From: Tachypleus tridentatus
Taxonomy: Eukaryota; Arthropoda; Merostomata; Xiphosura; Limulidae
Assembly (NCBI RefSeq): GCF_004210375.1
Contig: NC_134833.1
Location: 146,064,127 to 146,128,126 of the forward strand
Reading direction: 5' to 3'
DNA: 64,000 nucleotides
Shown here: positions 1 to 58,770 of the stretch, piece by piece
Position numbering within the stretch: the stretch's first letter is position 1
How the letters are laid out: the number at the start of each line of letters is the position of its first letter
Position numbers and translations under genes: made by a program
Notes under the pieces: generated by a model
Told to the model about the DNA's origin: nothing
Databases searched by the model: none
Seen by the model: only the letters and a program-made list of their open reading frames with translations

Positions 1-1075
1 GCACACTATTTAGATTTTGAAATGAAAATAATTGATAAGAATATCAATATAAATATTTTTGATAAAGAAAAATATTCTGTCTTTCCAATATATATATATA
101 TTTGCCCTCATTTAATAGTAATGTACCATACCTTTCTGTTATAACTTTACAATTATTCCGATTTTGTAAAATTTGTAATAAGTTAGAATATTTTATTATT
201 AATGCTTAATTATTGATAAAAAATTAATATTATATGGATTTAATAAAGAAACTTTAAATAAAATTATTAAAATGTTATGTAATAAATACAAAAATATATT
301 AAATAAATATAAATAAATAAAAATTAAAGAAATTTTACTAAAACATTCTGATAACTATTTTTAGTTGTAAATAAGGTTATTGAATAACATAGCACTACTT
401 CATGAAGATGAACACTTTACTGACTATAAAGATTTGTTTAGAGTATGAAAACTGATAGTTGTAGAAGACTTTACGGGTGGTAGTTGTGATTTTACCATTT
501 GGTTTAGATACCTGGTTGATACCCTTCATACTAGTATAATTCATTTACTGGGCTACCAGTCACTGCCTCACTACCATAATGAGGGTTGAAATACTAATTT
601 CAAGAGGTAAGTTTATTTAACTTACTTATCCCAAATGATAGTACCTTATTTTGCTTATTCTTATTTTTCAATTAATTATTTCTTCTTCTTTACGTTGGAG
701 AGCAGTCACCTTCCCACAGCTGTCTGCAGGAAGTGAAAGGCGATATAAATGTGGGACGTTGTAGGCTTGAGCACCCACATCTCGCTCTTCTAACTTCTAT
801 TATATTAATTTTAATTTACATTGTTATTCCTTTATTTTCCTCTTTATCTTGTTTCTTTATGTGAGACTGGCGAACGGAGATTAAGACTGATAGACGGTGT
901 ATCCCCACCGCATTGTGGGTTCTATTTTCGTATTCACCTACAAAACCAAGGTACATTTTATATTCCATATTATAGCCTGTACCGTGGAATCCTTTAAGCA
1001 TTTTTACTTTTTATTTTGTTTTGTTTGTTTTTGGTTATAACAAATTAACATTAGTCAGAGGTTTGGATTTGCTGT
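1..1075 (+). pseudogene. Penelope-like reverse transcriptase, C-terminal remnant and 3' region
   Basis: The window opens inside a decayed reverse transcriptase. The frame starting HYLDFEMKIIDKN matches the segment HYLDLEIKIIDKD in the copy at 23.7 kb. Downstream, about 700 bases of non-coding sequence are also shared with 24.2-24.9 kb, including the blocks gtgagactggc and cattgtgggttc. Stops and frameshifts make it a pseudogene. Classification as Penelope-like rests on the style of RT in the sister copy (YIDDLISINNPE) and is an inference. Confidence 0.6.
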
Positions 1076-15867: not shown

Positions 15868-16096
15868 ATTTTGAAACAAATTCTGTTCCGTTATTAAATA
15901 TAATGTTTAGGAATTACAAGGGACCTGTTGATCTATCTCGGCTATGCCATCATCCAAGCCGACCTAAAGCTATTAAATATACAATATATACATACACATA
16001 AAGCCACCTCTTATAAATCATATATAGATTACTGTATTTGTCTTCCAATCTCACTGCAAGTTGAATTATTACTAAGCCTAAACTTCCTTTATACTA
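15868..16096 (+). repeat. Unclassified dispersed repeat, copy 2
   Basis: Second copy of the 12872-13112 repeat in the same orientation, with an insertion or different spacing around 15990-16040. Confidence 0.6.
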
Positions 16097-16576
16097 CTAA
16101 AATACAAGTTAAAATCTTATACCTGTTTTTGCCAACTATTACTAAAGTTAGTTATATTTTGTTATTCAATTCCATTTTCTGAAGATAAAAATAATAAAAC
16201 CAAATAGCATTCAAATATCAACAACATAAAAACAACTTTTTATCTAACGTCTTCTCTTTTCACATAATGCTCCCCTCTCTCTCTCTATATATATATATAT
16301 ATATGTGTGTAGGTGTGTTTGTGTTTGTATTTATATTGGTATCACTAGTTTTTCATTGCTTCAACACTAAAGCACTCAAAGTTTTCTGGAAAATAAATTT
16401 TTAATCATAAATATTCATCAGATTGCATTATTCTTGGAAGTTTCTATTTTAACCAAAATTACCATTATTCTTACAATCTGATTGTAATTTTAATTGGCAT
16501 ATTACGTACACCAACTGATGTGTTAACATTATGTACATTTCTCTGATAAAACACAAAAAAATTGAAAAGTAAAATT
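16097..16576. other. Gene-free stretch with CT/AT microsatellite
   Basis: A (CT)n(AT)n(GT)n compound microsatellite lies at about 16270-16325. Nothing else was recognised. Confidence 0.6.
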
Positions 16577-16682
16577 GTTTGTTTGTTATTAAGTACAAAG
16601 CTAAACAATAGGTTGTGTTCATTGCAGGAGTTGAAACTTGATTTTTAACAGCACAAGTCCTCAGACATACCACTAAGCCAAC
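16577..16682 (-). mobile_element. Degraded SINE family 2
   Basis: It starts ttgtttgtttgttattaagt (tail complement) and ends with cagacataccactaagcc of the head. Confidence 0.65.
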
Positions 16683-16817
16683 AAAGAATAAGCTTCTATT
16701 AAAGTTTTAATCATGAGAAATGAACAAACATAAAAACATTTCTGTTGTTTATATTAAAAACCTCTGCAGTAACTTTAAACTGTATATCTGTGTGTGTACA
16801 CACATACACTTGATTTT

Positions 16818-17036
16818 TCGCAGATTCAAATCCACATCATACCAAACATGCTTGTGTTTCAGCTGTAGGGGCATTATAATGTGATGGTCAATCACACTAT
16901 TCATTGACAAAACAGTAGCCCAAGAGTTGATGGTGGGTGGTGATGACTAGCTGCCTTTCCTCTTGTCTTACACTGCTAAATTAGGGACAGCTAATACAGA
17001 TAGAAATTTTGTAGTTTTGCACAAAATTAAAATCAA
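16818..17036 (+). mobile_element. SINE family 1, 5' truncated, with 12-bp target duplication
   Basis: The 12-bp duplication acacttgatttt flanks it (16806-16817 and 17037-17048). The copy begins just before the B box, lacking the front half of the tRNA-like head. Most CpG sites have decayed to TG/CA, so it is older than the copy at 6171. Confidence 0.93.
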
Positions 17037-17086
17037 ACACTTGATTTTAATTTTAAATCTTCCAATGTTACTCCACAAAACATTTT

Positions 17087-17203
17087 GGGTGTGTTTTCTT
17101 ATAGCAAAGCCACATCGAGCTATTTATTGAGTCCACCGAGGGGAATCGAACCCTGATTTTGCATTGTAAATCTGAAGACATACCGCTGTACTAGCGAGGG
17201 ACG
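17087..17203 (-). mobile_element. SINE family 3
   Basis: The tail complement (cttatagcaaagccacatcg) is followed by the head complement ending accgctgtactagcgaggga. It abuts a family 2 head. Confidence 0.78.
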
Positions 17204-17302
17204 GTACACAATGGGCTCTCTGTACTCTACCCACCACGGGTATCGAAACCCGGTTTTTAGCATTGTAAGTCCGCAGACATACCGCTGAGCCACTGGGGGG
17301 CA
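17204..17302 (-). mobile_element. SINE family 2
   Basis: acacaatgggctctctgtac then accacgggtatcgaaacccg and ccgctgagccactggggggc. It sits directly against the family 3 copy, possibly a dimer or a nested insertion. Confidence 0.78.
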
Positions 17303-17850
17303 ACATTTTGGGATTTGGGGTGTAGTCTCTCAATCCTCACAGAATCAAAATAAAGAAATAAAACAGCTACTAATGAATAAAAAACATGGTACGGTAAAAG
17401 CCAATGCACTCTTGTGAGAAAGAAAATGTTGACAGATTAATCTCTTAAATGTAGGATGATATATGGCTTTACAAAATTGTACCACCATACATATTTCACG
17501 TAGTTTAAATTTTGAAAGCCCACAAATAAATATTTACAGTATTTATGAAATTCGTTATAAAAAATACAGAGTTCCAGAACTAGTTTAAGAGTCCTAACAG
17601 ATACAGATATATATTCTGTGACATGGTTCTTTCTTTTCAGATTCTTGGATCAACGTAATTCAATGTCCAGTTAACAAGAAGGAAAACTGTTAAAAGATGA
17701 AATAAATTAAACTCCAGTACTGATCTAACCTGTAGGCCAAAGTTTTCAGTCAGTTCAACTGCACTACACATTCAATAAATCAACTGACTCGCACAAAATA
17801 TTGCAATAGTTGAAAGAGATCCACTCTTGAAAATTTTCCCTTGAAACAAA
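17303..17850. other. Gene-free stretch
   Basis: Nothing recognised. Confidence 0.45.
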
Positions 17851-19980
17851 TTTTTTTTATCTAATTTCATTTAAACTGACTTCTTCATAGAATGTCATTA
17901 TACATTTGAATATACTATAACTTATGTCCCATTCGCAGAACATTCTTTACTTCCTTTAAAACCCCGTAGAAAAATTATCTGGCCCAAGGACCTTGTCATT
18001 CTTCAAACTTCCCAGTTTTTTATTAACCAGTTCAGTGGAATCACACTGTCTAACCTCAGTGCCATCTATTATAAGCTGTTATCAACTGTTAGACACAAGC
18101 CTTCCTTTATCACCCCTCAAGTGTCTTACTCCAATCCTAAGATTTTGTTAACCCTTAATGTTTGTAATTCTTACATTTTCAGCCAACTTTTATCATACAT
18201 CATTTTTAGTGTTCTAATTTTCTGTTTCACCATTTTCTTGTGATCTTCTAAGTCCCCTTTGGTACAAGTCAATTTAAATTTCTTAAATTTGTAATGTTTT
18301 ACATTAATTTCTCATACCCTTGTGAGTGAAACTGGTTTTCCTGTTGCTGGTAACCTCATATGTTGAGCTTGAACATTTGAAAATATATCTTCAAACAATT
18401 CCCATGTTTGATGAGCACCTCCAACTGATTCAGTTGCCTAATTCACAACAGATAATTCTTGCTGCATCTCTTAAAAATGTGCTCTTTTGACATTTGTAAC
18501 AAAACATCAAATTTAATAGAGCTGTGTCCACTTGCACCCACATATTTACCAATTTCAATTCTCTTAACAATTTTGTATCAGAAATTAACAATAAATCTAG
18601 AATACCATTATTTCTAATAGGTTCTTTAACTAATTGGTGATGAAATCCATCTTGAATAGTTTTCAGAAACCTCTTTCTCTTATGGTTTGGCCTTAGCATT
18701 TCACTATCAATATGTCTGAAATTAAAATAATCCATGATTATAACTTCATTAACAGCTAAATACTTAATGTAATTGTAAAGTTTCTCCTGTCATCACTACC
18801 CAATGGTTAATTCCCCCACTGGTACATCAGTAAGTCTATGGATTTACAACACTAAAATCGTGGATTTGATTCCTCTCAGTTGGCTCAGCAGATAACCCAA
18901 TGTGGCTTTGCTACAAGAAAAACACACACACTTCTAGCATTACAACAGTAAGAAATAAACCTATACTAAAAAATACTTCTAAATTCATTTCCTATGTTAA
19001 ACTTTACTTATTCTTTTTGAATTTAGTTTTTCCTGGCTCTCACCACTGTTGGTCCGAGTTCAAATCTTCCCTTAAAGCAAGTTACTACCCTTTACAAACA
19101 TGCCAGCCCATTCTCTATTTAATTGTAAACCATTCATTACAAAAAGTTCTCTTCAAATACTGGACTGATCCCATAAATCCAACAAACCAATTTGCTTATC
19201 CCTACATATTAATATACATTAACCTCAATCTAGCACTTAGCCCTAGTGACATACTCATAATTTCATACCTGCAGTAAATTATTAGCATTATTCCAGACAT
19301 TAAGTTATAGCCTTTTTCTTTAAATCCCTTTATCAACCTTTGTACTTATTAATTAGCTCATCTAACATATCTTTACATTACAAAAACTGCATCAGTGCTA
19401 ACCACATTTCTTATGTCTTGTTCTCATCAATTGTACCTTCTATATGTGCTCCTCTGTAGCATAATCTAATTATTTTCTCCCTATTTACCCCACAGACTAT
19501 TCTATCGACGTCTTGTCAATGAATCACCAATAACCCTCATCATCACACCCTTCTCTGACTATTTTGTTATTCTTTCTTTTCAATAGTTCCTCATCTGTAG
19601 AAGCCATGTACTAAAATCCGTTACTCAACAAGTTGTCCTTATTATAACTAATCCACTAATCTTCATCAATTTCCTTTAGCTCTAACAATACTTTAACTTA
19701 CTAAAAGTCATTATTAGTTGATGTATGCCTTCCACGTAAAACTCTTCCTGAAATAGTGCTACCATTTCCCACAGTCTATAATTCCGTGTATCTATTACCT
19801 GCACTTTAATTTGGATAGCTTCCAACCTGCAAATTCTACATACAAAATACACTGCTACTAGCTTCTTTACAAGTACATACTCTTCCAGAGTTCCTAAATG
19901 CAACCCACTCATTGCACATATTACACCTAATAAACTGCGAAAGTTAAGTCCTACACTAGTCTTAACCATTGTATTTGGGT
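17851..19980 (-). pseudogene. CR1-like LINE remnant (endonuclease/RT region)
   Basis: The minus-strand frame at 18430-18735 reads FNFRHIDSEMLRPNHK ... NNGILDLLL ... SDTKLLRELK, the end of an APE-type endonuclease (GDFN..DIDW, LDL.LT). Decayed RT-linker-like sequence follows. A further minus-strand frame of 95 codons at 19682-19969 (starting MVKTSVGLN) may belong to the upstream ORF. Many stops break it, and a family 3 SINE (18806-18935) interrupts it. Assignment to CR1 over other APE-type LINEs is tentative. Confidence 0.55.
18806..18935 (+). mobile_element. SINE family 3 inside LINE remnant
   Basis: The head cccactggtacatcagtaag and tail ggctcagcagataacccaat, then gtggctttgctac and acacaca, are all recognisable. 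It lies inside the CR1-like remnant and so inserted after it. Confidence 0.75.
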
Positions 19981-20572: not shown

Positions 20573-23500
20573 CAATGTATTTAGCCTGATTTATAACCTC
20601 CCTATAATTTATAAACTGGATTTAAACTAACGGATCTAAACTCAAGTAAAATATATAATACTGAAAAAAGAGAAAATAGAGTCTTTAGACTGCATTTGTT
20701 TAATAATACAATGTATTTAATCTGTTTAACAATTTACCAGTGAGATGAACTACAGCTAAGCCTAATAGTCATAGTACAATTTCACACCCAAGCCCAACGT
20801 TCTAGCAGAAGTGTTGGTTACACCACTAAACGTTTACTTAAACCCTACAACTTTGTTTACCAAATTTACTAAATCTAGTTAATCCTTGACTATTCGACAC
20901 AGATTACTACAAATGCTGATAGCCGTAGGTGTATAATGTGACAGTCAATCCAGTTGGTAAAACAGAATATCTTTCCAACATCTCTGCTAAATTAGGGACA
21001 GCATAGCCCCCAGTACCCTAACAAACAAACAAACTCTTCAGCATAACCCCTATGAATAAACAAATTCGTCCTTCTTCCATTCGAAAACTATGATAAAACG
21101 TGTATAATAACATTAAAAGTTTTGTTGAAGTGTATGAAACATAGATGGATTCTGTTTTTATCATTAGCGTACTGAAATTCTTGGTTTTCTAATAGTATGC
21201 TATTCATTTATATTTGTTAAATATTTTGATTTTGTCTATTTTTAAAAACAAAAACAAGATTTTCTATCATTTATCGATTTTATGAAATATTTTACTAAAA
21301 CTTTGTCTAACTTTTCTTCTTAATTCCTAAAAAACAAACTCTCATAACCAAAACCAAACACAAAAACTGCTCATCAAATGCAGTGTAATGAACGAAAATC
21401 GTTTTGAAATCAAATATACCTTTATGTGTTCACAATGGAGATTACATATATCAACCTTATTATTTATACATTATTTTATAATGAATGTGAACAGATGGCA
21501 GCACATGCTGTTAAAATCGTTAAAGTAGCACAAGAGCATAAGGTAAACTTGAATGTTAAATTTTTGAATGGTATAATTATTATATTAAAGTAAGTGTTTA
21601 GATATAGTTTAATAGAAATGCATGTTTTATTTGTTGGTGCTTCAAATTGTTATCTGTCTATAAAAAAGTATTTTGCAATCGCTCGACTGTTTTGGGTTTC
21701 TGTGTATTTTTGTAAATCTCAGAACTAAATCAGCAAGTGACTAAATGAGAATTGTGTTGTTCATGATGTCAGATAGAAATACATGGTTAAAGTTGTATTA
21801 ATATCAAACGATGAAAACACAATAACCCAAAAAATAAAGTTCACCTTTCGAAAGCGTTCAGTTTATTGGGTTTTCGTCGTTTAGTACTTGTTTTATTAAC
21901 TAGGGTTAATACTGTGACTGTAATAGAAGAGTATTTAGTAATAATCAATATTTGCCCTTTACACTTATCACTACTAGTAGTAATGTCACTGCCAGTATTG
22001 GTTCTTATAGATATGAGTTTGAATCCTCGCTGCATCAGACTTAGGAGTGTACAACGTCATGATCAATTCTAGTATTTATTGCTGATAAAATTTTCTAACT
22101 TAAATGTTCTTATTCCAAGACAGAAAAGCCCAATGAACATGAAAGCTACTTAGATTCAGATAACATTCAATGTGTGGTTCAAAATAAAATTGTAATGTTC
22201 TGCTGGTATGTCTGGAAAATCTCATGTCTGGAAAGTCTCATGTCTGGGTAGTAACACTTCACATAAATGGAACTGAGAGTTGATAATGAAGACAGGTTGA
22301 TGAAAATAAATCACATAAATATGGAACTGAAATGTTGATAATACAAGTACATGTTATAAGAGTGTTATGTTTTTATTTTTGGTGGCATACATGTCTCATA
22401 CTAAAAGAGGAATTTTGAACGTGTAGTGATCTTGATAAACTACATGTCTCAGTGCTGGTTCTTAACGTGTATTATGTGACTACACTGAACAATAAACATC
22501 TGTGACCTGAATAGTCCTAATGTTGATTTTTAACCATATAAAACAGTATTTGATGTAACCTGTGTGTTAAATCTATGCTGTTATTATGCCTAAACTTCAC
22601 ATGAACCAGTTTTTAATGCCAGGCTAAATCATGTAGAGCTACTAATATCAAGACAAAAATCACTGTTTTCTCTTATAACTTAAATCATTTTCAAAAACCC
22701 TTAGACTGTTATAGCTAAATTGTCATATAACTCTGTCTACAATGTCATACAATATAACATTTGACAATTAATATATCCCACATGAATGTTTCTTTCTTTC
22801 TGACAAGTGTTAGTTAATGTGTTTAGATGCTAACTGGTACAGTGACATTCATGTTAAAAATACATAATCTGATAACAGTATTATAAGATAAAGTTCTATA
22901 GAAAATCATCTGAAACTGACTTAGGTCTGTTTATGGACATTGAGTAATTACCAAAATTTCACACAAATCAGCTAACCTTTAAAATCTAGATTACAAACTG
23001 GCAAAATGCTTTTATTGTATCAACTGTATATTGAATTATTACTCAATGGAAATATGTGTGTTGGCTAATGGAAAATGCTACTTTTGAAGACTGATATTAA
23101 TATGTTTTTGAAATACTTGAGATATCATGTTTTTTGGACATTAAACCTTTATCTGTTGTTAAGTCATTATTGATTTACAGTTTATGTAACTTACTCAATT
23201 AAAATCAGTAAAAAGTTTAAAAGAGAAATGGATAACTTAGAAAACAAAGAGAGGTTTAAATTGTTTACTTTAGAATGGGTTATGAAGTTTTTATTTTCTT
23301 AAGAGAGTGAGTATGGTAGTTTTACTTTTCCCCAAAATGAGTGTCTGTTAAGTTAGACATGCTGATGATATAAAAGTTGGTGTAACCTATGATTTCTTTT
23401 AAATGCTGATAAGTGAAATTGAAAAACAACATTTTCAATCTTTAATAACATTAGCTTGTATTTATTTCACCCACAAGGGTGAACATACTGATAAAAGTTG

Positions 23501-23704
23501 GTCAATGTAACAATTTAAACAAGACATTTAAAGTCTGTAGCTAATTAAGGCCACATCACTTTGATGATCACTTAATGCAGTAATAGGTATGTGTATATGT
23601 ATTAGTTTGTTATAACTCAAAAACAAGTGATAACACTTAATATATCTTTTACATTTCTGTATTTATAATAATTATATATTTTTCAATAAACTTGTTTTTA
23701 AACA
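20573..23704. other. Gene-free region upstream of MKKS
   Basis: It holds a decayed family 1 SINE (about 20920-21031) and a possible SINE head trace near 22005-22060. Small direct repeats are also present: 16-bp tgtctggaaaatct-like units at 22207-22250 and a pair of acataaat...tggaactga segments at 22262 and 22313. A non-coding first exon of the MKKS transcript may lie here or closer, but none was identified. Confidence 0.45.
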
Positions 23705-24890
23705 AGTAATAGGAGTTCCAATGAGAGCTAACTATTCTACTTGGATAGCAAATTTATATTTTTACCTTCATTTACAAATATATTGATGATTTAATTAGTA
23801 TAAATAATCCTGAAATAAATGATGTTATTAACACTATTTATCCAGCAGAACTAGAAATTGAAAATACTTCAATATTTGATGTAAAAGCACATTATTTAGA
23901 TTTAGAAATTAAAATAATTGATAAGGATATCAAAACAAATATTTTTAATAAAAGAAAATATTTTGTCTTTCCAACCGACTTTTAATAGTAGTGAACCATA
24001 CCCTTCTGTTATAGCATTATAAGTTTAGTTATTCAGGTATTGTAAAGTTTGTAATAAATTACAATATTTTATTAGTAATGTTGATATACTGATACAAAAA
24101 TTAATAGTTAGTGGATTTAATAAAGAAACTTTAAATTATTCTGTAACAAATATAAGAATGTATTAAATAAATATAAAGAAATAAAAATTAGGGACATTTT
24201 ACATAAAATTCTTAATAATTATTTTTAATTAAGAATATGGTAATTTAACAACTTGGTGCTACTTTATGTGGATGTACACCTTACCACATATAAAGGTTTA
24301 TTTAGAGCATGATAGTCATAGTAGACTTGATGAATGAGTGATGGTTGAGAGCTATACAAGTTTGTTTGGACAGCTGGATGGGATGCTTCATGCTGGTATA
24401 GTTCATTTGCTGTGATGTCAGTTTCTGCCTTTCTATGATATTGGGGGTTAGAATGCTAACATCAAGAGGTTTTCTTCTTACTTACCCCCAAATGACAGTA
24501 CCTTATTTTTTACTTCAATTAATTCTTTACCTGAAATAGCAGTCATCTTCCCACAACTGTCTGCAGGCAGTGAAGAGCGATATAGATGTGGGGCATTGAG
24601 CACCCATATCAAGCTCTCCTAATTTCTAATTCTATATCTCTTGATACTCTTTATTTTTTATGTGAGACTGGCAAATGGAAGTTAAGACTTAGATGGTGTA
24701 TGCCCACTGCAATGTAGGTCCTACTTTGTTAGTCACCTCCAAAACCTAGGGTATATTTTATAATCCCTCATTGTAAGCTTGTACCTTGGGATCATTTTGA
24801 TTGATGCAGCATTTTTTATTTAATTTGTTTTTGGGTTATAACAAAATAATATAATTAGAGGTTTGGATTTACTGTTTTTAATGCAGTTTT
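23705..24890 (+). pseudogene. Penelope-like RT remnant with 3' non-coding region
   Basis: Translation shows GVPMRANYSTWIANLYF (RT motif before the catalytic site). A frame change and apparent deletion follow, then YIDDLISINNPE with the YxDD catalytic signature, then HYLDLEIKII up to a TAA near 23992. The next 900 bases are non-coding and match window positions 100-1075 at an estimated 75-80 percent by eye. Its right end lies only about 420 bases before the ORF upstream of MKKS. Confidence 0.65.
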
Positions 24891-25311
24891 TCCTTGTGAT
24901 TTCACTTATTTTACTACTTCATTAAAATGTATGTATTTTCACTAATATATAGAAATTAGCTTTTATTAAAAACATGTATACAAATGAGTTTTATGTATTT
25001 ATGTTTAGTAGCCATATTCGGTTTTCTTAATGTTTTCATGTGGTGGTTGGCCAAACTAAGGAATTGTTATTTTCTTAATATTTTCCTGTGGTGGTTGCAT
25101 TAACCTCAATAATGTGCATGCTGAATTATGTAGTTTTTAGTGTATTCATATTATTTGTAAGTTTTATTTCTTTGAGAGGAAGGACGTGACAGTTATACAC
25201 ACCTGATGTCTACGGCCACTACACGCATTTTTCTTTTTATGCTGTTCCAGACCATTGGATGAGTAATTCCTGTTTATGTGTTAATTTTTATGTGCATTGT
25301 TTGTCTGTTTT
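24891..25311 (+). other. Region before the upstream ORF
   Basis: No first exon or promoter can be fixed. A short GC-richer patch (gaggaaggacgtgacag at about 25178) stands out from the AT-rich surroundings and could be near a transcription start. Confidence 0.25.
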
Positions 25312-25314
25312 AGT
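25312..25314 (+). promoter_or_regulatory. Putative 3' splice acceptor before the upstream ORF
   Basis: A T-rich tract (ttgtttgtctgttttag) ends in AG at 25312-25313, immediately before T-ATG. It implies that at least one 5' non-coding exon lies further upstream. I could not identify that exon. Confidence 0.5.
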
Positions 25315-25506
25315 ATGACTAAGTGGAAATCTCTGGTGAACAAGAACCTGGTGATAATCGTCATGGTTCCTATGCTTGTTGCCGTGCACTGGTCATGGTC
25401 CAGACTTCAAGACAATGATGCTTTTGTTCCGAAGGAAAGTAAAAAAGACTGGCCAGTAAAAGAAATGTTTCAGAAAGTAATACAGAATAGTAAAAGTAAA
25501 GATTAA
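25315..25506 (+). CDS. Small single-pass membrane protein, ORF upstream of MKKS
   Basis: The ORF encodes 63 residues. A basic N-terminus (KWKSLVNK) precedes one hydrophobic segment at about residues 10-27 (NLVIIVMVPMLVAVHWSW). The C-terminus is short, charged and Lys-rich, with a FVPKE motif. This layout suits a mitochondrial inner-membrane microprotein, but no family domain is recognised. The ATG at 25315 is chosen because a pyrimidine-rich tract and AG (25312-25313) end one base before it, which looks like a 3' splice acceptor; the longer reading from 25297 would then be intronic. The ORF ends 360 bases before the MKKS start and has the same orientation. From memory, human MKKS mRNA has upstream ORFs for small mitochondrial membrane peptides, one about this long, so this may be the arthropod counterpart. 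Sequence homology to the human peptide was not checked. Confidence 0.72.
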   Translation: MTKWKSLVNKNLVIIVMVPMLVAVHWSWSRLQDNDAFVPKESKKDWPVKEMFQKVIQNSKSKD

Positions 25507-25631
25507 CCTGAGGAATGTTATTGTGATTTTGAAAAGACTAAGATAGCATCAAAGAAATACTTGAATTGAAAGAGGTGATGGGTTAATAGTAAATGCATCT
25601 GAAAAAATATTTTAAAACATAGTCAGTTTAT

Positions 25632-25637
25632 AATAAA
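25632..25637 (+). promoter_or_regulatory. Polyadenylation signal AATAAA between upstream ORF and MKKS
   Basis: A canonical AATAAA lies about 125 bases after the upstream ORF stop and about 230 bases before the MKKS ATG. If used, it would give a short mRNA coding only the 63-residue peptide. A second AATAAA is at 25794-25799. Confidence 0.45.
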
Positions 25638-25793
25638 GTTTTAAAAATGGGATGTTAAATGATATTTAATTTGATATAGTCAGTGTTTAAGTTCAAAGAA
25701 TTTTCTGTACAGTTAGTGATAGTAAAAGAAAGTATGATCAAAATACACTTGCCCTGGTTAACATTGAAGTCTTACTTATAAAAGTTTTTGGAA

Positions 25794-25799
25794 AATAAA
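25794..25799 (+). promoter_or_regulatory. Second polyadenylation signal AATAAA before MKKS
   Basis: This AATAAA is followed by a T-rich stretch and a GT-rich stretch (ttgtggctgttttgtgtgtg), the usual arrangement of a downstream element. It lies 67 bases before the MKKS start codon. Confidence 0.45.
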
Positions 25800-25866
25800 T
25801 TTTCTTCTCTCTACATTTGTGGCTGTTTTGTGTGTGTGAAGTTTTATAGACTAGGCCTTCATAATC

Positions 25867-26869
25867 ATGAACAGCTCTGGACTTTATCCTACCAAACTGG
25901 CTGAAGCTAAAGTAGAAATTGAACCCTTGAAACTACCTGAAAATCTTGCAGCCTTTGAAGAACTGATGAAGCTTGCAGGTTCATGTTTTGGCCCTAAAAG
26001 CCAATTAAAATGTATTCAAATTTCTGAAGAAAGCTCTGCTATTGTAACTTCCACAAGTATGAGGCTTTTTCAGTATCTGCCAGTTTCTAATCCTTATCTT
26101 AAACTGATAATTCAAGCTGTGAAAGAACACCTCAAAATTTACAAAGATTCTGGGACATTTCTTACATATGTAACATTAAATATATTAACCAAGTTCCCTA
26201 ACTTACCTTTCAAACCACAGTTAATTTCCAGCTTGTTTGATGCATTTTCCATCATATGTCTCGAATACCTAAAAAGTGAAACTTGTCATCCAAAAGTCCA
26301 GCTGGACTTTGATAGCGTGAAACAGTTAATGTCAGTTACCCAGTATATTATTTCTTCTAAACCTGGTTGCTCACTACAAGGTGACGAAAGTACTCACTTA
26401 ACTTTGCAGCTTGTCAAATGTTTCCTTCACACTATACCTTCTCCTGTAGTGGAGAGATCGTCACAACCACTGCGTATCGGCAGACTACATTTCACAACCT
26501 ATGAAGGTGGTAGTGTTTCAGATTCCATTATGTATCCTGGCTTGTTACTTTCATCAAAGCTTTGTTCACCAAGGTCTCTAAAGTGTAGAGAAAGATTACA
26601 AGTCATCCTTTTCACTGTTTCCTTGGCATGGAATGAAGAAAATCCTTTATCACCAAACCACTTGGAATTTTGCAGCACTTTAGAACTGCAGTCCTACTTA
26701 TCCACATGGTTTGAAATGTTTGGAAGGAAATTGCTAGACAAAGGAATCGGCATGGTGGCTTGCCAGAAAATAGTGAATGTACACTTGAAGAAATACCTTG
26801 AAGATCATGGAGTAATAGTGTTGGAAAAGTTGGGGCTAGAAACAGTTACAGCTTTAAAGGAACTTTGTG
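25867..26869 (+). CDS. MKKS: MKKS coding exon 1
   Basis: This exon holds 334 codons plus one base: the N-terminal equatorial, intermediate and most of the apical-like region. The donor is tttgtg|gtacgt at 26870. The open frame continues six codons into the intron (ending FFWP), which should not be read as a real C-terminus. It is one large first coding exon, as in vertebrate MKKS. Confidence 0.93.
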
Positions 26870-29800
26870 GTACGTTCTTTTGGCCGTAGCTTGTGATTGT
26901 GATTAAAAACATTGTTAAAAGTTAACTCCTGCTCTCCGAAAACTTTAAATATCTCAAACTGTAATTACTTTGCTTTTATAGTTCATTGTTTATTACACTT
27001 TATTTACACCGAGGAAATGAATATGTGTTATTGTAAGGTTTATGGTTGTAGTAAAACACCCAGTGTGTGAAAACAAACTTGAAGGTGGCTAAATCTTGCT
27101 CTCACATTAACACAAGAATTCTGTAAACTAATATTACACAAGACACTGGGCTTTAAAACACATATAGCATTTGTGTATTTTGTGATGCAAAATTTCAACA
27201 TGAAAATTGTACAAGGTTTTAAAGTCAACTGTATTAAACATTTACTGCAGTTACAAGAAAGGTCTGAAGTGTAGTTTACACTTATATGTGACTTATTAAA
27301 TATGTTAAATGTTCATAATTTAAACTAATTTTTCTTTAGCTATATAAACAAAAGTCTTTTTCTGTCAGAAGTTAGTTTAATAGTAACAAAAGTTCACAAT
27401 ATTGCGTGTAACGGTTAATGAAACAAACTTGGACAAATCTTCATATTATAGAAACTAGTTTGATATATTTCTGCATCCTATTCAGTGTTCACTTTGTTTT
27501 TTCTTGGGAAAATCTCACCATAATACATTTAAAACAGTGTAGCTTTTAGTGAGTGAAATTGGAAACACTGACCTAAAGAAATATGTCAGATTTTGATATG
27601 AATGCTTTATTCACTGACATTCCAGTAACCCAAACTGAATCAATCTTTCTTTTATGTTTTTGTTGACACTTTTGTCTCTAACTAAAGTCTGTGTAAACAA
27701 CACCGTGTAGCTGTCTTGGTTGGTACTTTAGACAAAAATTCAAAATGGAAAATCAACTTTCTTCAGGGAATGTTTTAAAACAGAATTACTTCATACATGC
27801 ACAGATATATATATATATATATGTATGTGTACACAAATATTTCAAAATATTCTATGTACCAGTACATTCAAAATATCCTGATTGGGAAAAAGATAAACTT
27901 CCTTTCTAGAATATTTTGATAACCAGTGAAAACACAGAACCTTTCCTCTGTCACTTTTTCCATGCCACCATAAGCTAGTTTAAACATATTATTTTTTTAT
28001 TTTCTCATAGAACTTAGAGAATATTCCATCCAGCATGAAGTTAGCTATAGCCTCTGTTTTCAAAGAACTCCACTTTCCACAACGCTTTATTACAAATTGC
28101 CATGTTAGAGCAAGGAAAATCTTGCTTCACGAGGACAAGACTAACCAGTGATAACACGAAATAATTTTATATTGATTACAACATAAACATTGAAAGCCTA
28201 GAGAAAATATTAAAGATTAATAACCCTATAATCACATAACAGTTCCATAAGACCATTTGAAATAGCTACAAATAGAACAAAACCTTAGAGTAGAAAACAA
28301 GCAGTACTTTTGCTTGTGAAAAAATTCTCAGTGTTGGATTTTAATATTTATGTTCTTAAACTGCAGGATTTTTTCTAAATTGTCAGTTTTTCACCAGTAA
28401 CTTGTTCAATGTTTAATATTGTGATACAATAGTCAGATTGATTAAAAATTAATAAAAATTTTATGAAAACATATAATAACATTAAAATAAAAATTGTCAA
28501 AAGCCTGCTTAATTTTAACACCTCTCAAGTTCTCTTTAAACTAAACAACTCCCTGTGTCCCTAAGAGAATTTGAACTCATGTAGGCATTAATGATCAGTT
28601 TTTATCAGAAGATAGTGTGAGACTGAAGGGGACATATGAATGGGTCAGAATTAGGTTCTGTAATACTAAGACTTCTGACAGTTTTTCACAAACTTGTTAA
28701 TGCTATTTTAAGACAGATGTAAGCTAATTTATCAGAAGTTTTTCTCAGGTTAAATAACATGATTTTGTTATTCAAACAATGTAGGAGCCATTCCTCTTGG
28801 AAACCTAGTAGTGCCACCTGACAATCGTCCACTTGGCTTTCTGGAAAAGCTGGATGTTGTGACACTAAACAACAGAAGCTATTTGAACATTCAGAACAGA
28901 AGGAGCTCAGTTACAACGTTGTTGCTCTGTAATTGGAGTGAGGAAAGTTTGGAAGAAATGAAGGTGTCTAGGACTACTGTGTTAAGGCATCAGAGTAGTT
29001 TTATTAGGAAGATACTTATCTTAGTAGTTTAACTAGAAAGATACTTAAGTTATCTTGGTAGTTTTACCAGGAAGATACTCAAGTCATCTTGATAGTTTTA
29101 CTAGGAAGATACTTATGTCATCACTGTAGTTTTACTACGAAGATAGTTAAGTCATTGTAATATTGTTGTTAAGAAGATTCTTAAGTCTAATGATAAGTTG
29201 TAGAGGTGGAGTTTCTTATAAAATAATTTTAATAGTTTTCATTTAATGTTGTTGGATAACTGCATTTTCTAGTTTCCTCAATTTTCTGTGTTAACTTAAA
29301 ATTCAAAATCTGTTTCATTATGAAATATTGCATATAGCATGGCCAATATTAGATAATGTCCATTTAAATACAATAAGACATTACTACAGTGCATGTTTTC
29401 CTTTTCAGGTTGTTTGTCAACAGGCCGTAAGTGTTCTCTACCAATTACTTCTTAAACCAGTTGGCTTGTACGGAGCAGGGTGTACTGAATGCCACATGGC
29501 GTCAGTGCTTCGTAAGCAAGTACGTAATCATATTTTACTGATAATTAATAATATTTTATGCATAAACTTTGATTGAGCTGAAAAGTAAGCATATTTTCTA
29601 GTTCAAAACAGATGGCCTGTCTTGGAAGGATTAATCTTTAGTAATTTGTTTTGAGATTTGATTTTCACAGATAGCACTTATGCTTGTGAGATATATCAAG
29701 TTTTGTTTTTGAAGATTTACATTTTAAAACTGCAAATTTTTTTCTTACTTATCAGCTTTTCTTTGGTAACTTCTTAAAGTGAAATGTTTAATATTTGATA

Positions 29801-31854
29801 TCTCACAGTTACATCCTGGCTTCATGGATAAAAGTTCTCCAACTGTAAATAAAAATCCTTTAAAATGACCTTTCCCAGACTTGGCACAAAAGATTAATTA
29901 ATTAATGTGAAATAAACACATTTTATTTCTAACACTTCTAACTTTTATTGGTCTGAACTTTCAACCATTTTTGTGTGTAAGAGGTAAGAGTAATAATTGG
30001 TTAATTCAATGATACATGTTTTTTTGTCCGAGGTTTTAGAATATTAATTGGGCCTCCATGTACAAGGTGTGACTATTAACATTTATAAAATTTAATTAAC
30101 AAGTCATGTGATTATCAGGTTTAGTCCATCTTGTAACAGGAGAAATTCTAATTAATGTAAGTCTTTGTTAACCTAAGAAGGTTGAAACATTATTTTCTAC
30201 TTTATTTTAATAAAAGCTTTAATACCCATATTTGAGATACAAGTTCTAGTTTATTCCTGGATGTATTTTTTTCTACAAAGTTCAAATTTGATACTGATGG
30301 CTGGAATACACCTAAGGACATAACTCCAAAGTTTGTAGAGGCCTAGACCATCACCAAATTCCTGACCAGTAGCTTTATTTCAGTTAAAATAATTATGAGG
30401 TACTCGTCCATGCTGGCTTGTTTTCCTAAAAATATATGATGCACCTGTATACTGTGTATATATTCCTTATTAGCATTAGATATTTTGTTATATTGTGAAC
30501 TAAATATATGACAAGTAAAGTTTTGACAGTTTTGTGGGTGGAATAAGAGAGGTGGAGAATAGCTGAATTCATGAATTATAATTATTTGGAAATAAGATAG
30601 TCTTCACAAAACTTGTACTGTGTTAGGTATTACTTCCAACTAAGGAGTTTGTTTATATTCTCAAGAAAATATTTCATTATCTTTGAAGAATATTCTTTGT
30701 TTAATTACCAAGTTCCAGTGTTTTGTTTCAAACTTTAATTTGAAACATATCAAAAATGTGATTAAACTAGATATTGAGGAATGTTGAAACATTGTAAGGA
30801 ATATTTTTCTCTCTGTGGTAATTTTGTAAAGAGGAAAGTTAAAACATTGTTATAATTATTTAATTTTTTGCAAATCTGTAAGGCTTCAGTTAAAATCAAA
30901 ACATTCCTTTCTATTCCATTCTTTACGTTTATATCTGTTTGCACAGATGCGATTTTCCCTCCCACATTTGCTTTTTCCAATAAGTTCAGAAGAACCTGAC
31001 AGTCCTCATGTTATTGTATTTTTACTTTAAAAGAATGTTCCAGATGTTAGACCACTGTACCTATATAAAAGTTTGTTCACGCTTCCCAAGTTAGAATGCA
31101 AGTTTTGTTACTGTTGTAAACTCTGTGATAAGTAACAAAACTTTGTTAGATAATGGTGGGTCAGATGTAACAGGAAGTATCGAATTTTTAAAATCTTCAA
31201 CTGTATATTCAACTTGGATAATAAAATATGTTAAATGAAGCTTGCTTGTACTTAACAGTTTTCTCTGAGTTAATCTATACTTTTGTATTTCTTGTACACA
31301 ATTAAACATTTTATGTAATTTACTATCTGAATACCTTGTATTATCTGCTCATACTGTACATTTAGCTTGGTTTTGTTTACATTTTTCAAGTGTATTAATT
31401 ATTTTGGTAGGTTCAGAAAGATTTACACATCTACACTAAGAGGTTTGGATGTAGTGAAGCAGTAGTTCTCTCAACTTGTGAATGTTTTTCATCCTGTCTT
31501 GAAAACTCAGCAGTGAGCCTTTCTAAAACATCCAGACTGAACTTAAAGACCGATTCACGTTTCCATCACTTGTGGTATGAAACTCCTGGTGGTGATTTAG
31601 CCAGCAGCTGTGCTTGTGGACAGTTCACTGAGTCAGACCTTGAACCTTGCATCTGGCATTCGCTACGGAGGGGAGAGATGGACTTTGTGTATGAGGAAGT
31701 CGAACCTGATACAGTTTTGAAAAACTCCCAGTTCAATGTCAAACTGTCAGCTATCATAGATGGATGTGCATCTCGCTTAAATGCTTACCATGTTGCCATG
31801 GAAACATGTTCTGCTCTTCTTCGAACAGCGTTATATATCGAGGACAGAAATTAA
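25867..31854 (+). CDS. MKKS: MKKS / BBS6, chaperonin-like Bardet-Biedl protein (four coding exons)
   Basis: The CDS is join(25867-26869, 28785-28963, 29409-29519, 31411-31854), about 578 residues. MKKS is a divergent group II chaperonin relative. With BBS10 and BBS12 it assists assembly of the BBSome, a ciliary trafficking complex, and acts at the centrosome/basal body. Hallmarks match human MKKS in order: FGPKSQLK at residues 41-48 (chaperonin GP loop), DSGTF at about 94-98 where active chaperonins have GDGTT, YLKSETC in the middle, LLLCNWSEE, GAGCTE at about 416-421, HLW, and a C-terminus ending IEDRN. An in-frame TAG at 25852-25854 fixes the ATG at 25867. All introns begin GT and end AG, and the frame is kept throughout. 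Loss of the ATPase consensus is typical of this family, not a sign of decay. No breaks were seen. A 63-codon ORF and polyadenylation signals lie just upstream. Confidence 0.95.
27806..27830. repeat. AT/GT microsatellite in MKKS intron 1
   Basis: A run of alternating TA followed by tgtatgtgtac. The rest of intron 1 (26870-28784) shows no other recognisable feature. Confidence 0.8.
28785..28963 (+). CDS. MKKS: MKKS coding exon 2
   Basis: The exon is 179 nt. The acceptor is caatgtag|GAGCC and the donor ATGAAG|gtgtct. The first two bases complete a Gly codon with exon 1, and the exon ends in phase 0. Its peptide runs from AIPLGNLVVPP to TTLLLCNWSEESLEEMK, parallel to the human LLLCN...ELK stretch. 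Confidence 0.9.
28985..29180 (+). repeat. Minisatellite in MKKS intron 2
   Basis: About five units of roughly 34 bp, built on gtagttttactaggaagata followed by cttaagtcatctt, stand in tandem right after coding exon 2. Units differ by substitutions and small indels. Confidence 0.8.
29409..29519 (+). CDS. MKKS: MKKS coding exon 3
   Basis: The exon is 111 nt, 37 codons, phase 0 at both ends. The acceptor is ttttccttttcag and the donor is CAA|gtacgt. It encodes the conserved segment with LYGAGCTECHMA, the MKKS version of the chaperonin GGGATE motif. A GTAAGC at 29512 is a possible alternative donor, but it would break the frame. Confidence 0.92.
29520..31410 (+). other. MKKS: MKKS intron 3
   Basis: The intron is AT-rich. 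The only feature noted is a copy of the CTAAGAAGGTTGAAAC motif at about 30172, with flanking similarity to 9305-9385. Open frames inside the intron have no family resemblance. Confidence 0.7.
31411..31854 (+). CDS. MKKS: MKKS coding exon 4 (terminal)
   Basis: The acceptor is ttattttggtag|GTTCAG. The exon holds 147 codons and a TAA at 31852-31854. It includes an HLW motif and a C-terminal helix region that aligns with the human AKLSGLQVAVETA...YVIEDKN end (here MET...YIEDRN). A polyadenylation signal follows 44 bases after the stop codon. Confidence 0.92.
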   Translation, partial: VQKDLHIYTKRFGCSEAVVLSTCECFSSCLENSAVSLSKTSRLNLKTDSRFHHLWYETPGGDLASSCACGQFTESDLEPCIWHSLRRGEMDFVYEEVEPDTVLKNSQFNVKLSAIIDGCASRLNAYHVAMETCSALLRTALYIEDRN

Positions 31855-31897
31855 TGTATAACTGCTGTATGTAACACACTGAGCTGGTATTTGACTG

Positions 31898-31903
31898 AAT
31901 AAA
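31898..31903 (+). promoter_or_regulatory. MKKS: MKKS polyadenylation signal
   Basis: AATAAA lies 44 bases after the MKKS stop codon, with a further AATAAA near 31920. It implies a very short 3' UTR. A deleted SINE starts soon after, at about 31936. Confidence 0.65.
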
Positions 31904-31935
31904 GTAATTAGAAATTTCCAAATAAATCTTAATTG

Positions 31936-32042
31936 TTTGTTTTAAATTTCACGCAAAGCTACTCAAGGGCTATCTGTGCTAGCCCCCACATTTGAAAAGG
32001 CGAGCATGTTTGGTGCAATTAATGGGTATTCGAACCTGCATA
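31936..32042 (-). mobile_element. Internally deleted SINE family 1
   Basis: It runs from the tail complement (ttcacgcaaagctactcaag) to gctagc, then jumps directly to cccccacatttgaaaaggcg near the head. About 120 bases of body are missing. It lies just beyond the MKKS polyadenylation signal. Confidence 0.75.
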
Positions 32043-33186
32043 AAGCTTAATACGTTATTGGTTATTCTTGAGCTGAATGTTAACTTTTCCAGTCAACAAC
32101 CTGTGATGACTGTCATAGTTACTGTAAAAATATTTTCATTAAACAATAACTGTTAAAGCTCTGCATTTGTCAGTGTACATTTATTAATCAACACTTCTTC
32201 TCTAGTTTTGCCATACTAACCAGTCAAGTTATTTATTACTATTATTATGCCATATTTGTCATTATTAAACTGACATCTTTAATTTTGTTATTGCACTGAA
32301 CACACGGACATGAAAATTCAACTTATTTATTGATATCCACTAACGTGTGCTTCTGTCTGTTGATAACTTGGAAAACAGATCTGTTCATCCATAGCCATCA
32401 AGTGATGCTATCTCCCGAGGTCAAAAGAAATTAATGTTCTTAATTATATTTTAACAAATGCGTTTACATTCTAGATTTGGTTTGAACAGAAGTGACTTCA
32501 CATAAAGTACAACTGATTTTTAAATAGAGAAGATGGAATAGCATGTACATCTAAACCATTTTGCTAAGTAACATTAGCTAAGGCTCGAAGAACATATTTT
32601 ATAGTAATTATATACTGGCAGTAAAGTAGGAATTTTATGTGTCTTATGGGGTTATTCTTTTTCTTGTTTCCATTTTAGTAATGAAGCACTCCCTTCAAGG
32701 GGCACAGCAGAATGTCTGTGGATTTACAACATTAGAAATTGGCTGCTAATACACGTGGTACGCAGATAGCTCGTTGTTCAGTTTTGTTCTTTATTACAAA
32801 CAATTTAATGAGGTATTACTTTGTGGTGAAGGAAAGAATCTATCAGTTTTTTTTTTTGTTGTTGTTTTTGCTCTGCGTGTCTGGACTAGACTGGAAACAT
32901 AAGATTCTGCAATGTCTTTGCAAATTTGTTCATGTAAACTACTATAATTCAGTGTTATTTAATTTAAAATTTTATTATTATCTGAAATGCAAGTCTTCTG
33001 AGCTCTATAGTTCAGTGAAGTGTTACAAATAGAGAAGAAAATTGGAGGGAAGATGCTGGTAATGCTATTTTCATGTATTTCACTCTATTGTAGTTAACAT
33101 AAAACTAATAAAGGTAGTAGGAAATAAGTTTAAAGATAAAACGAACTAGAAAGATTAAAGATAAACCATCAAGTTTCTTTCAATAG
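32043..33186. other. Gene-free stretch downstream of MKKS
   Basis: It holds a decayed family 2 SINE at about 32690-32812 (+, starting actcccttcaaggggcacag). Nothing else was recognised. Confidence 0.5.
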
Positions 33187-33400
33187 GGTACATTACCTCC
33201 TTTCAAATAAATGTTCTCATTCAGTGCTGCCCTCTACATGCTAAATTATTTTGCGCATGCCACAAGCCTTGAAGTCTCCACCAAGCTGGAATTGACTGAT
33301 TCCAATGTTTTCATATGCAAGTCATTATGCTAACCCTTTACCAATAAGAGTGTGACATACTTTCTTGACGCATGCAACTCTTTCTATTCAATTCTACCAA
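33187..33400 (+). repeat. Unclassified repeat with GCTGCC...GCATGCCACAAGCC, copy a
   Basis: Core: ttctcattcagtgctgccct, then about 20 bases, then tttgcgcatgccacaagcct. Related copies occur at 34750-34920 (inverted), 35085-35340 (direct) and 47030-47345 (inverted). It has no coding content. Confidence 0.7.
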
Positions 33401-34067
33401 ACGGTTAATTCTAGTTTGGTATTACTCTTATTGTAATGTTTAGTATGTGCTCTTTTAAAGTGTTTCATTTGATTTTTTTTCCTTCTCATTGTATTAATTT
33501 CTCTCAGCAAGTATACTTCTTACACAACATTAATATTTACAATTTGTTGAGTTATTCTGAAGTGGAATTATTTGGTATTTATATCCAGTTAAGGTATTAC
33601 TTTATTACAAAACGTTTAATGTCTTTCTGTCAAACAATTATGTTAAGTTATTCATTTTGCGTTAAGAATACGTTATCAGTTTGGAGGTTATATGTTTTAT
33701 TAGTACATTTACATGGGCTTCTGGTTGCAGTACACAGAAGGGAGATTTTCGGTTGTACTCACTGTGGAAAGTGTCATTAGCAATGAGCTGAGCTACGTGG
33801 AGCTTCATCTCGAGTTTGGGGAAACGCACATTTTAACATATAGCTTGCCGACTCTGTAAAGTTGAGCCGTTACACTGTAGTTTATCTTTTTTTTTTTTTT
33901 TTGAAAAAATACATTTTTAATATTATTTGTAATTATTTGAGTTCTGTAATACAAATTTTGTTAGATTGGTCAATACTTATAGTCCAGTTCAGGTTAGAAT
34001 TTTGGCTTAGTTGTATCTACTCTCACACACCAACGCAATTCGTCTTACTGGTATATGAATCATTGCT
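33401..34067. other. Gene-free stretch
   Basis: A poly-T run lies at about 33886-33902. Open frames here are T-rich noise. Confidence 0.45.
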
Positions 34068-34079
34068 ACAACTAGTGTT

Positions 34080-34346
34080 TTGTTTGGAATTTCGCACAAA
34101 GCTACTCCAGGGCTATCTGTGCTAGCCGTCCCTAATTTAGCAGTGTAAGACTAGAGGGAAGGCAGCTAGTCATCACCACCCACCGCCAACTCTTGGGCTA
34201 CTCTTTTACCAACGAAAAGTGGGATTGACCGTCACATTATACGCCCCCACGGCTGGGAGGGCGAGCATGTTTAGCGCGACGCGGGCGCGAACCCGCGACC
34301 CTCGGATTACGAGTCGCACGCCTTACGCGCTTGGCCATGCCGGGCC
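34080..34346 (-). mobile_element. SINE family 1, full length, with 12-bp target duplication
   Basis: The 12-bp duplication acaactagtgtt flanks it (34068-34079 and 34347-34358). It is complete from tail to tRNA-like head and CpG-rich, with loop TTACGAG on + (CTCGTAA on minus). This is the best-defined insertion in the window and a good reference for the family consensus. Confidence 0.96.
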
Positions 34347-34749
34347 ACAACTAGTGTTATTCTTCCATACATCACATTTCATACATAGGTTGTTGATAAT
34401 ATGAACTTATTTCCTTTTGTAAGTTAACGTTTATTTCGATTTTGTTATGATTTATCTTTTATACTTCAAACAAGTTTGAAACCTTGAACTGGAGACTATG
34501 CTAATGATTCTCACTACTGCACGTAATTATTGTTAGGCTGAGCTTATTTTACCCCTTAGTAATATCCTTTGTTCTGCACTTCTTAAGTAGGCTGAACAAC
34601 TATCCCTTATTTTTTGGGTTACCCCTAATTCTACTTGTGGGTTACTTGTTAATTAAGTTTAATATCTTTAATCATAACACGTATTACATATTTTTATTTA
34701 TCTACACAATTTCTTACCCTTGATATCGTTTAATTTACCCTTATTAACC

Positions 34750-56570: not shown

Positions 56571-56841
56571 GTCCGGCATGGCCAAGTGTGTTAAGGCGTT
56601 CGACTTGTAATCCGAGGGTCGCGGGTTCGAATCCCGGTCGCACCAAACATGCTCGCACTTTCAGCCAAGGGGATGTCATAATGTGACGGTCAATCTCACT
56701 ATTCGTTGGTAAAAGAGTAGCCCAAGAGTTGGCGGTGGGTGGTGATGACAAGCAGACTTCCCTCTAGTCTTACACTGCTAAATTAGGGACGGCTAGCGCA
56801 GATAGCCCTTGAGTAGCTTTGCGCGAAATTAAAAAAAAAAA
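56571..56841 (+). mobile_element. SINE family 1, full length
   Basis: The head gtccggcatggccaagtgtg, loop CTTGTAA, B box gggttcgaatccc, body and tail gcgcagatagcc...gtagctttgcgc are all present, ending in an A run. It has the best conserved tail stem (GCGCA/TGCGC). Confidence 0.92.
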
Positions 56842-57613: not shown

Positions 57614-58770
57614 TACTCTTCAAAACAAGAAACGTAAAAGGGATATTTTTGTTATTTCAAAGAGAAATATATGTAATAACGTTACAAGCTCAGAGTATGT
57701 GATGTTACACGTGTTAAGGCACTGATTGTCAGACCAAAATGACAATAAAAGTTGTGCACTTTGAAAACGGAGGAAAACATCGGATTTTTCGCCAAAACGC
57801 ATGCGTGTCCAATAAATTTGTTTGAGAGATCTGCATGTTCTGCAAGTGCAACATGTGCAAAATCCCTATAAAAGTGACGGGTTCTCGGTTTCCATAGCTC
57901 AGTGTTAAGCCACCGACACGCAATACAGTTACACCAAGACTGACTGAAGCATAACGCAACAACGCCATTGGTCGCTTGGAAGCAGGCGAATCTCGATCAG
58001 ATGTTGCCAGAGCTGTGAATGTCCACCCAAGCACCATCACAAGGCTATGGAATCGTCATCAACAACATGGATCAACTCGTGACCGTCCACGATCTGGCAG
58101 ACCTCGTGTGACCACGCCCGCACAAGATCGCAACATCCGGTTACGTCACCTTCGGGATAGGACCACCACTGCGATGTCTACTGCCTCAACCATACCAGGG
58201 CTGCGTAGGATTTCCGATCAGACCGTCGATACGTCGACGAGATTCTTAGGCCCTATGTGCAACCCATCATGGTGAACGTCAACGACGTTTTTCAACATGA
58301 CAACGCCCGTCCTCACACAGCCCGACTCACCACTGTCTTCTTGAGACACCACAACATCAACGTTCTTCCCTGGCCCTCCAGATCACCAGATTTAAACCCC
58401 ATCGAACATCTTTGGGACGAGTTGGACCGACGTCTGCGACGGCGACAACCTCAACCGCAGACTCTACCTCAGCTTGCAGCAGCTTTGCAGGCTGAGTGGA
58501 CAGCCATTCCACAGGATGTGATTCGTCATTTCATCGCTTCCATGGGCAGGAGATGCCAAGCAGTTATTGATGCTCACAGGGGGCATACTCGTTATTGACG
58601 TTGAGTGACGTTAAACTTCACCTTGCGAGCGTGGACTTCGCCTTTGCAGACTTTGGATGTTCAGCAGTGAATGTGCAAAGTTTCACACATGTCATACAGA
58701 ACTACCCGGAATAAACTTGTTAACAAGTTGTCTCATATTTTGCCTTTTGCGTTTCTTTTTTTGAAGAGTA
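57614..58770 (+). mobile_element. Tc1-like element, internally deleted, 1157 bp
   Basis: The inverted repeats are tactcttcaaaacaagaaac at left and the complement of gtttctttttttgaagagta at right, flanked by TA (57612-57613 and 58771-58772). The interior carries the two ends of a Tc1-type transposase on +. Confidence 0.93.
57940..58598 (+). pseudogene. Tc1-like transposase with central deletion
   Basis: The N-terminal half has helix-turn-helix sequence (SRSDVARAVNVHPSTITRLW) and RDRPRSGRPRVTT. The C-terminal half starts near 58257 with NDVFQHDNARPHTARL and SPDLNPIEHLWDELDRR, holding the second and third catalytic acids (D and E). The junction near 58225-58250 skips the region with the first Asp. 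A stop also lies near the N-terminus (EA-stop-RN). Both halves look little mutated, so the deletion is recent or was carried by amplifying copies. Confidence 0.88.

Follow-up and report, generated by a model that had tools for sequence, protein, structure and literature searches.

In the window (the whole 64,000-nucleotide stretch of Tachypleus tridentatus DNA that was analysed), a small open reading frame (sORF) of 63 aa is observed 5' of an MKKS-like chaperonin coding sequence, uninterrupted and on the same strand (Table 1). From the letters of the sequence it had been described as an ORF of 63 codons that encodes a single membrane segment, with the MKKS ATG following 360 bases after its stop, and both points are borne out: the ORF occupies 25315-25506 with a hydrophobic stretch at residues 12-26, its stop ends at 25506 and the ATG of the chaperonin stands at 25867. 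What is this reading frame? Is it a chance ORF in a leader, an exon of something longer or a gene for a small protein in its own right?

Table 1. Positions of features at the locus. Splice ranks come from generic matrices that were not trained on this genome, and are relative to the window.
Feature	Positions	Strand	Basis or score
CpG-depleted block containing sORF and MKKS	22058..33613	.	left edge interval 21889-22204, right 33366-33811
Possible upstream exon, speculative	24567..24713	+	acceptor top 1.1%, donor top 3.6%
Stronger candidate acceptor AG	25249..25250	+	top 0.4% of AGs
Acceptor AG one base before sORF ATG (exon would start 25314)	25312..25313	+	top 6.5% of 3234 window AGs
sORF, candidate uMKKS1 counterpart, predicted single-pass membrane peptide	25315..25506	+	63 aa, 192 bp, ATG to TAA
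Hydrophobic core of sORF membrane segment, residues 12-26	25348..25392	+	Kyte-Doolittle
Possible intron between sORF and MKKS	25575..25849	+	donor top 1.5%, acceptor top 14%
AATAAA, weaker downstream element	25632..25637	+	14 of 20 G/T
AATAAA with GU-rich stretch 3', candidate poly(A) site	25794..25799	+	19 of 20 G/T
MKKS-like coding exon 1	25867..26869	+	PF00118 E 3.2e-25 (read-through frame to 26886), junctions
MKKS-like coding exon 2	28785..28963	+	junctions, frame
MKKS-like coding exon 3	29409..29519	+	junctions, frame
MKKS-like coding exon 4 with stop (ends 31854)	31411..31854	+	AATAAA at 31898 and 31921

The downstream chaperonin gene

The borders of the four MKKS-like exons were set by eye and checked by frame, and the joined exons give a protein of 578 aa. 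The exon-1 frame matches Cpn60_TCP1 (PF00118). Against the PDB, the best match of the complete protein is thermosome alpha (3.4e-13), with CCT theta at 1e-11, and exon 1 alone gave no match at 1e-5; the protein is thus read as a divergent chaperonin. Where chaperonin exons L039 and L042 have GDGTT, it has KDSGT. Judged by these matches, the downstream gene is a group II chaperonin that is divergent from the CCT subunits.

Is this chaperonin MKKS? The search gave 56 chaperonin matches in the genome, some of them in one and the same gene, and exon length alone cannot single out MKKS, as long open chaperonin frames are also present on C7 (686 aa, at G000:C7:154172032-154173975, which we take to be perhaps BBS12 or BBS10) and on C12 (497 aa). 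The coding exons here measure 1003, 179, 111 and 444, similar to what we take to be the human lengths of about 985, 176, 111 and 441. The name MKKS is accepted on the strength of the divergence, the size and this exon structure; the gene, named MKKS in the original prediction, fits that identification. SLX4IP (PF15744), presumably the human neighbour of MKKS, gave no match, but the family was silent in all 14 controls as well, so the synteny search says nothing. In the part of PMC12491567 available, a BBS6 homologue is described as absent from the insects examined there.

A tandem array of about five 34-bp copies (28995-29155) is found just within the intron that follows MKKS exon 2.

Properties of the small open reading frame

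The best 15-residue Kyte-Doolittle mean of the sORF peptide is 2.5 and the best 19-residue mean is 1.99. AlphaFold2, run without an alignment, places helices at residues 3-37 and 47-61 (mean pLDDT 72.3, pTM 0.27), and the membrane segment is predicted to be inside the long first helix. Residues 1-11 have a net charge of +3, and the second helix is amphipathic, with a helical moment of 0.41 across residues 46-61.

How much of this could arise by chance? One reading is that the sORF is a lineage-specific upstream ORF (uORF), translated or not, that damps MKKS translation or is idle, its likeness in length to the human leader peptide uMKKS1 being a coincidence. ATG ORFs of at least 63 aa are present in 4-13% of 700-bp stretches, which suits such a reading; the figure was 3.8% among 40000 simulated sequences, and 37 of the 280 real stretches, taken from both strands of ten random 10-kb loci, held one. 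So does the frequency of membrane-like segments, as a 19-residue mean of 1.99 is attained by 8 ORFs, the sORF included, among the 80 in the window that have at least 50 aa, or by 7 of the 79 others. Codon usage, which is at chance level, has also been placed on this side: the sORF ranks 34 among 254 window ORFs, its score is equalled or exceeded by 31 of 140 ORFs from random loci, and the +2 frame outscores the sORF's own frame in the window ranking and in the random-locus comparison alike. The codon-usage test is nonetheless uninformative as to coding by the sORF, since NDUFB1, a known small gene of this genome, scores no better. CpG retention within the sORF is not significant (3 versus 1.0, P 0.08).

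Other properties do not sit well with a chance uORF. A length of exactly 63 aa occurs in 0.4% of the simulated sequences and in 1 of the 280 real ones, and this exact length agrees with that of uMKKS1, at the same place. The G+C content is exon-like, 0.380 for the sORF and 0.377 for MKKS exon 1, against 0.27-0.30 in most surrounding noncoding parts and 0.33 immediately upstream; 22 of 577 overlapping noncoding windows attain 0.380. A candidate poly(A) site between the two ORFs, described below, would make little sense for a mere uORF. A lineage-specific uORF is accordingly held to be unlikely, but is by no means a negligible prospect. An sORF with a helix is in itself no news, and by itself this one is mildly unusual; the notable part is the exact length agreement with human uMKKS1.

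The peptide has no match in Pfam, NCBIfam or the PDB. Relatives were sought by pattern in viral contigs, where there was no match, and in a prokaryote genome collection, where none of 25 pattern matches was confirmed. Within the genome (2.17 Gb in 205 contigs), the sORF peptide and MKKS exon 1 each matched nothing but themselves at the thresholds applied, and the leader DNA (25230-25866) is present once at the search depth used. Both the sORF and MKKS exon 1 appear to be single copy at that depth. A second match of the peptide in the genome (L002, E 5.75, 27% identity) was inspected and judged to be due to chance.

A known small respiratory-chain protein placed before MKKS was also considered, NDUFB1 (the MNLL subunit of complex I, PF08040) in the first place, as it has a similar length and a similar single-helix plan, with a short charged head, a helix and a charged tail. 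The true NDUFB1, however, is encoded at another place on this contig (L004, E 1.9e-7), the sORF lacks any Pfam match, that to PF08040 included, and its likeness to the NDUFB1 of this genome is at shuffle level (P 0.52). NDUFB1 was rejected for the sORF, and, by the Pfam and PDB searches, another known small respiratory-chain protein is most improbable here.

Proposed transcription and processing of the leader

Germline methylation is the established cause of CpG mosaics of this kind in invertebrates and may be so here; in this genome CpG depletion accompanies gene bodies. The CpG share is at most 0.047 in 28 of 30 loci around chaperonin exons (the exceptions are L032 and L061), which represent 30 of the 56 matches and 13 gene clusters with MKKS itself among them, versus 3 of 10 random 10-kb loci; the NDUFB1 locus is also within a depleted block. 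Depleted bins are frequent, 36 of 100 random 1-kb bins being of this type. The sORF and MKKS share one such block, with a CpG share of 0.037 across 22060-31870 and a right edge 1.7 kb beyond the AATAAA at 31921. Between the two ORFs (25507-25866), none of 44 CpG/TpG/CpA sites is a CpG, so no CpG-restored MKKS promoter is visible in these 360 bases. From the single block and the missing promoter signature we infer that transcription starts near 22 kb and passes through both ORFs. Three CpGs are clustered just 5' of the sORF (25185-25224; 3 versus 0.7, P 0.03), which leaves room for a promoter or an exon directly before it. There is in addition a weaker step in CpG inside the block near 25.0 kb, with a share of 0.010 before and 0.048 after, perhaps due to exons that keep their CpGs.

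The alternation of CpG-depleted and CpG-normal blocks is a sharp mosaic, as from gene-body methylation, both in the window (15900-19450 and 22058-33613) and at locus L022. The depleted block at 15.9-19.45 kb (o/e 0.28) is without an assigned gene.

Where would a leader exon begin? The original prediction had a likely splice acceptor one base before the ATG of the sORF. The AG at that place is usable, but it is not the best one, as a better-ranked candidate is present 63 bases further upstream, and this, if used, would put a 19-aa overlapping ORF (25259-25318) ahead of the sORF. By the same scoring, the acceptors of MKKS itself lie anywhere from the top 0.06% to the top 20%, so a choice between the AGs that end at 25250 and 25313 cannot be made in this way. 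Further along, a ribosome that is done with the sORF would need to pass seven ATGs to reach MKKS, unless the possible intron in Table 1 is excised, which would remove six of them and leave one. The site pair of this intron is not unusual, an equally good pair being found in 179 of 498 stretches.

An acceptor immediately before the ATG also lends itself to another interpretation, in which the sORF forms the final exon for a longer protein, whether this belongs to the same gene or to a separate one upstream, with an end at the poly(A) site 5' of MKKS and with the ATG at 25315 being internal. The speculative exon at 24567-24713 provides an example: when it is joined to 25314, an ORF from the ATG at 24586 continues in frame into the sORF and encodes 106 aa (24586-24713 plus 25314-25506). 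The fair acceptor and donor around that exon, the frame running on into the sORF, the poly(A) signals past the sORF stop and the CpG step near 25.0 kb all agree with a last exon. An in-frame join, however, has one chance in three, and the 63-aa agreement with uMKKS1 would have to be accidental; a last exon is thus considered rather improbable.

AATAAA hexamers are present at 25632 and 25794, 3' of the sORF and 5' of MKKS. Of the 113 plus-strand AATAAA in the window, that at 25794 is followed by the GU-richest sequence, and a score of 19 is reached by 2 of 213 when the two strands are taken together, by a measure that was picked after this site was seen and that is unvalidated, as the signals at the presumed MKKS 3' end (31898 and 31921) score merely 0 and 12 of 20. 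With such a poly(A)-like site, some of the transcripts might contain the sORF and not MKKS. The site was counted in favour of the model that follows, as it would be expected if there is a short mRNA with uORFs only, as in human.

The explanation favoured on balance, if by a modest degree of confidence, is that the sORF, within the 5' leader of the MKKS unit, is a genuine gene for a small protein and the counterpart of uMKKS1, and that the unit yields a short and a long mRNA. The primary transcript would begin near 22 kb, and a 5' intron would be spliced to a site just 5' of the sORF. RNA with its 3' end at the poly(A) site near 25.8 kb would be a short mRNA for the peptide alone, and RNA that continues into MKKS would be a long mRNA, on which the sORF would limit MKKS translation. 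With its positive N-terminus, one membrane helix and amphipathic C-terminal helix, the peptide may be a mitochondrial membrane protein that works apart from MKKS.

Relation to human leader peptides

The source study for human uMKKS1, a mitochondrial peptide of 63 aa encoded in the 5' leader of MKKS, is reportedly that of Akimoto et al. in 2013 (doi 10.1016/j.bbagen.2012.12.010). The excerpts available of later papers give human uMKKS0, uMKKS1 and uMKKS2 as 43, 63 and 50 aa (PMC9985340) and place the 63-aa peptide in the mitochondrial membrane, with a predicted action apart from MKKS (PMC9776223). The account of human MKKS in the original prediction, with uORFs of which some make small mitochondrial membrane peptides, one of about this length, is in keeping with these excerpts. 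A table in PMC9776223, where the chromosome is printed as 10, has the 63-aa peptide span 193 positions without interruption, and an excerpt of PMC3951408 gives the ORF in the human mRNA as 192 nt (261..452). A short human transcript with uORFs only is made by way of a poly(A) site in the leader, according to part of a review (PMC12573267). Similarly partial sources list a human MKKS uORF among the leader ORFs detected by PhyloCSF (PMC6886504) and describe repression of MKKS by the uORF, partly via its sequence (PMC7530721). The MKKS-leader peptides in the portion available of PMC5896265, which are that paper's own predictions, are of 48 and 50 aa, not 63.

The horseshoe crab sORF is like human uMKKS1 in being 5' of MKKS, in its 63 aa, in being one uninterrupted ORF and in encoding a membrane peptide, as predicted here. 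A poly(A)-like signal in the sequence between the two ORFs, ranked by an unvalidated measure, would be a further likeness. Unlike the human leader with its additional uORFs of 43 and 50 aa, the leader here has no complete counterpart of these except for nested starts inside the sORF. And unlike a demonstrated homologue, the sORF peptide aligns with the 17 available residues of uMKKS1, a tryptic fragment given in an excerpt of PMC8448870, no better than shuffles do (P 0.46-0.76 versus 5000 shuffles per gap-cost setting), a comparison that has little power either way. This absence of detectable similarity has been counted for a lineage-specific uORF. The sORF is nevertheless probably the counterpart of uMKKS1, by the likenesses in position, length and predicted structure. 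The literature searches turned up no account of a peptide encoded 5' of MKKS in an arthropod.

Mitochondrial microproteins encoded in leaders are known from other genes. The MIEF1 and SLC35A4 uORF peptides are of this type, with the uORF reported to act on translation of the main ORF, in the available parts of PMC7530721 and PMC10908861. The sORF peptide would resemble them in being leader-encoded and, by its predicted structure, mitochondrial; the genes are different and are likened by description.

Could the arrangement be ancient? A wider proposal, which seems to us evenly balanced between right and wrong, is that the peptide and uMKKS1 are orthologues, that an MKKS locus with two cistrons, for a mitochondrial microprotein and for a chaperonin-like BBS protein, the choice between them being made by use of a poly(A) site in the leader, predates the protostome/deuterostome split, and that of the two products it may be the microprotein, and not MKKS, that is older and essential. 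Peptides from uORFs are mostly young, and one shared by horseshoe crabs and human would be a very old leader-encoded protein. The youth of most such peptides is in line with the part available of PMC10032668. If the peptide is shared, selection on it should be measurable among bilaterians, and a mitochondrial protein, not the cilium, might mediate the effects of those MKKS alleles that touch the leader.

Several other elements of the window and genome were seen in passing. Two minisatellites are near the 3' end of the window, one of 60 bp x 16 at 60376-61350, inside a minus-strand open frame of 346 codons, and one of 45 bp x 26 at 61453-62596. A fragment of a DDE_3-type transposase is present at 58209-58598 (E 2.1e-12). 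A tRNA-like match at 56578-56638 reaches the Rfam threshold (31.8 bits versus 29), is unreported by ARAGORN and is perhaps a tRNA-derived repeat. A tRNA-like repeat that carries a motif similar to CCGGCATGGCC recurs, as found by eye, in the window (34080-34350) and at locus L002 (1260-1560 and 1800-2070), and is probably a SINE. The coagulin family, which we take to be special to horseshoe crabs and which marks the genome as that of such an animal, has 19 matches in it, the best at E 1.5e-25.
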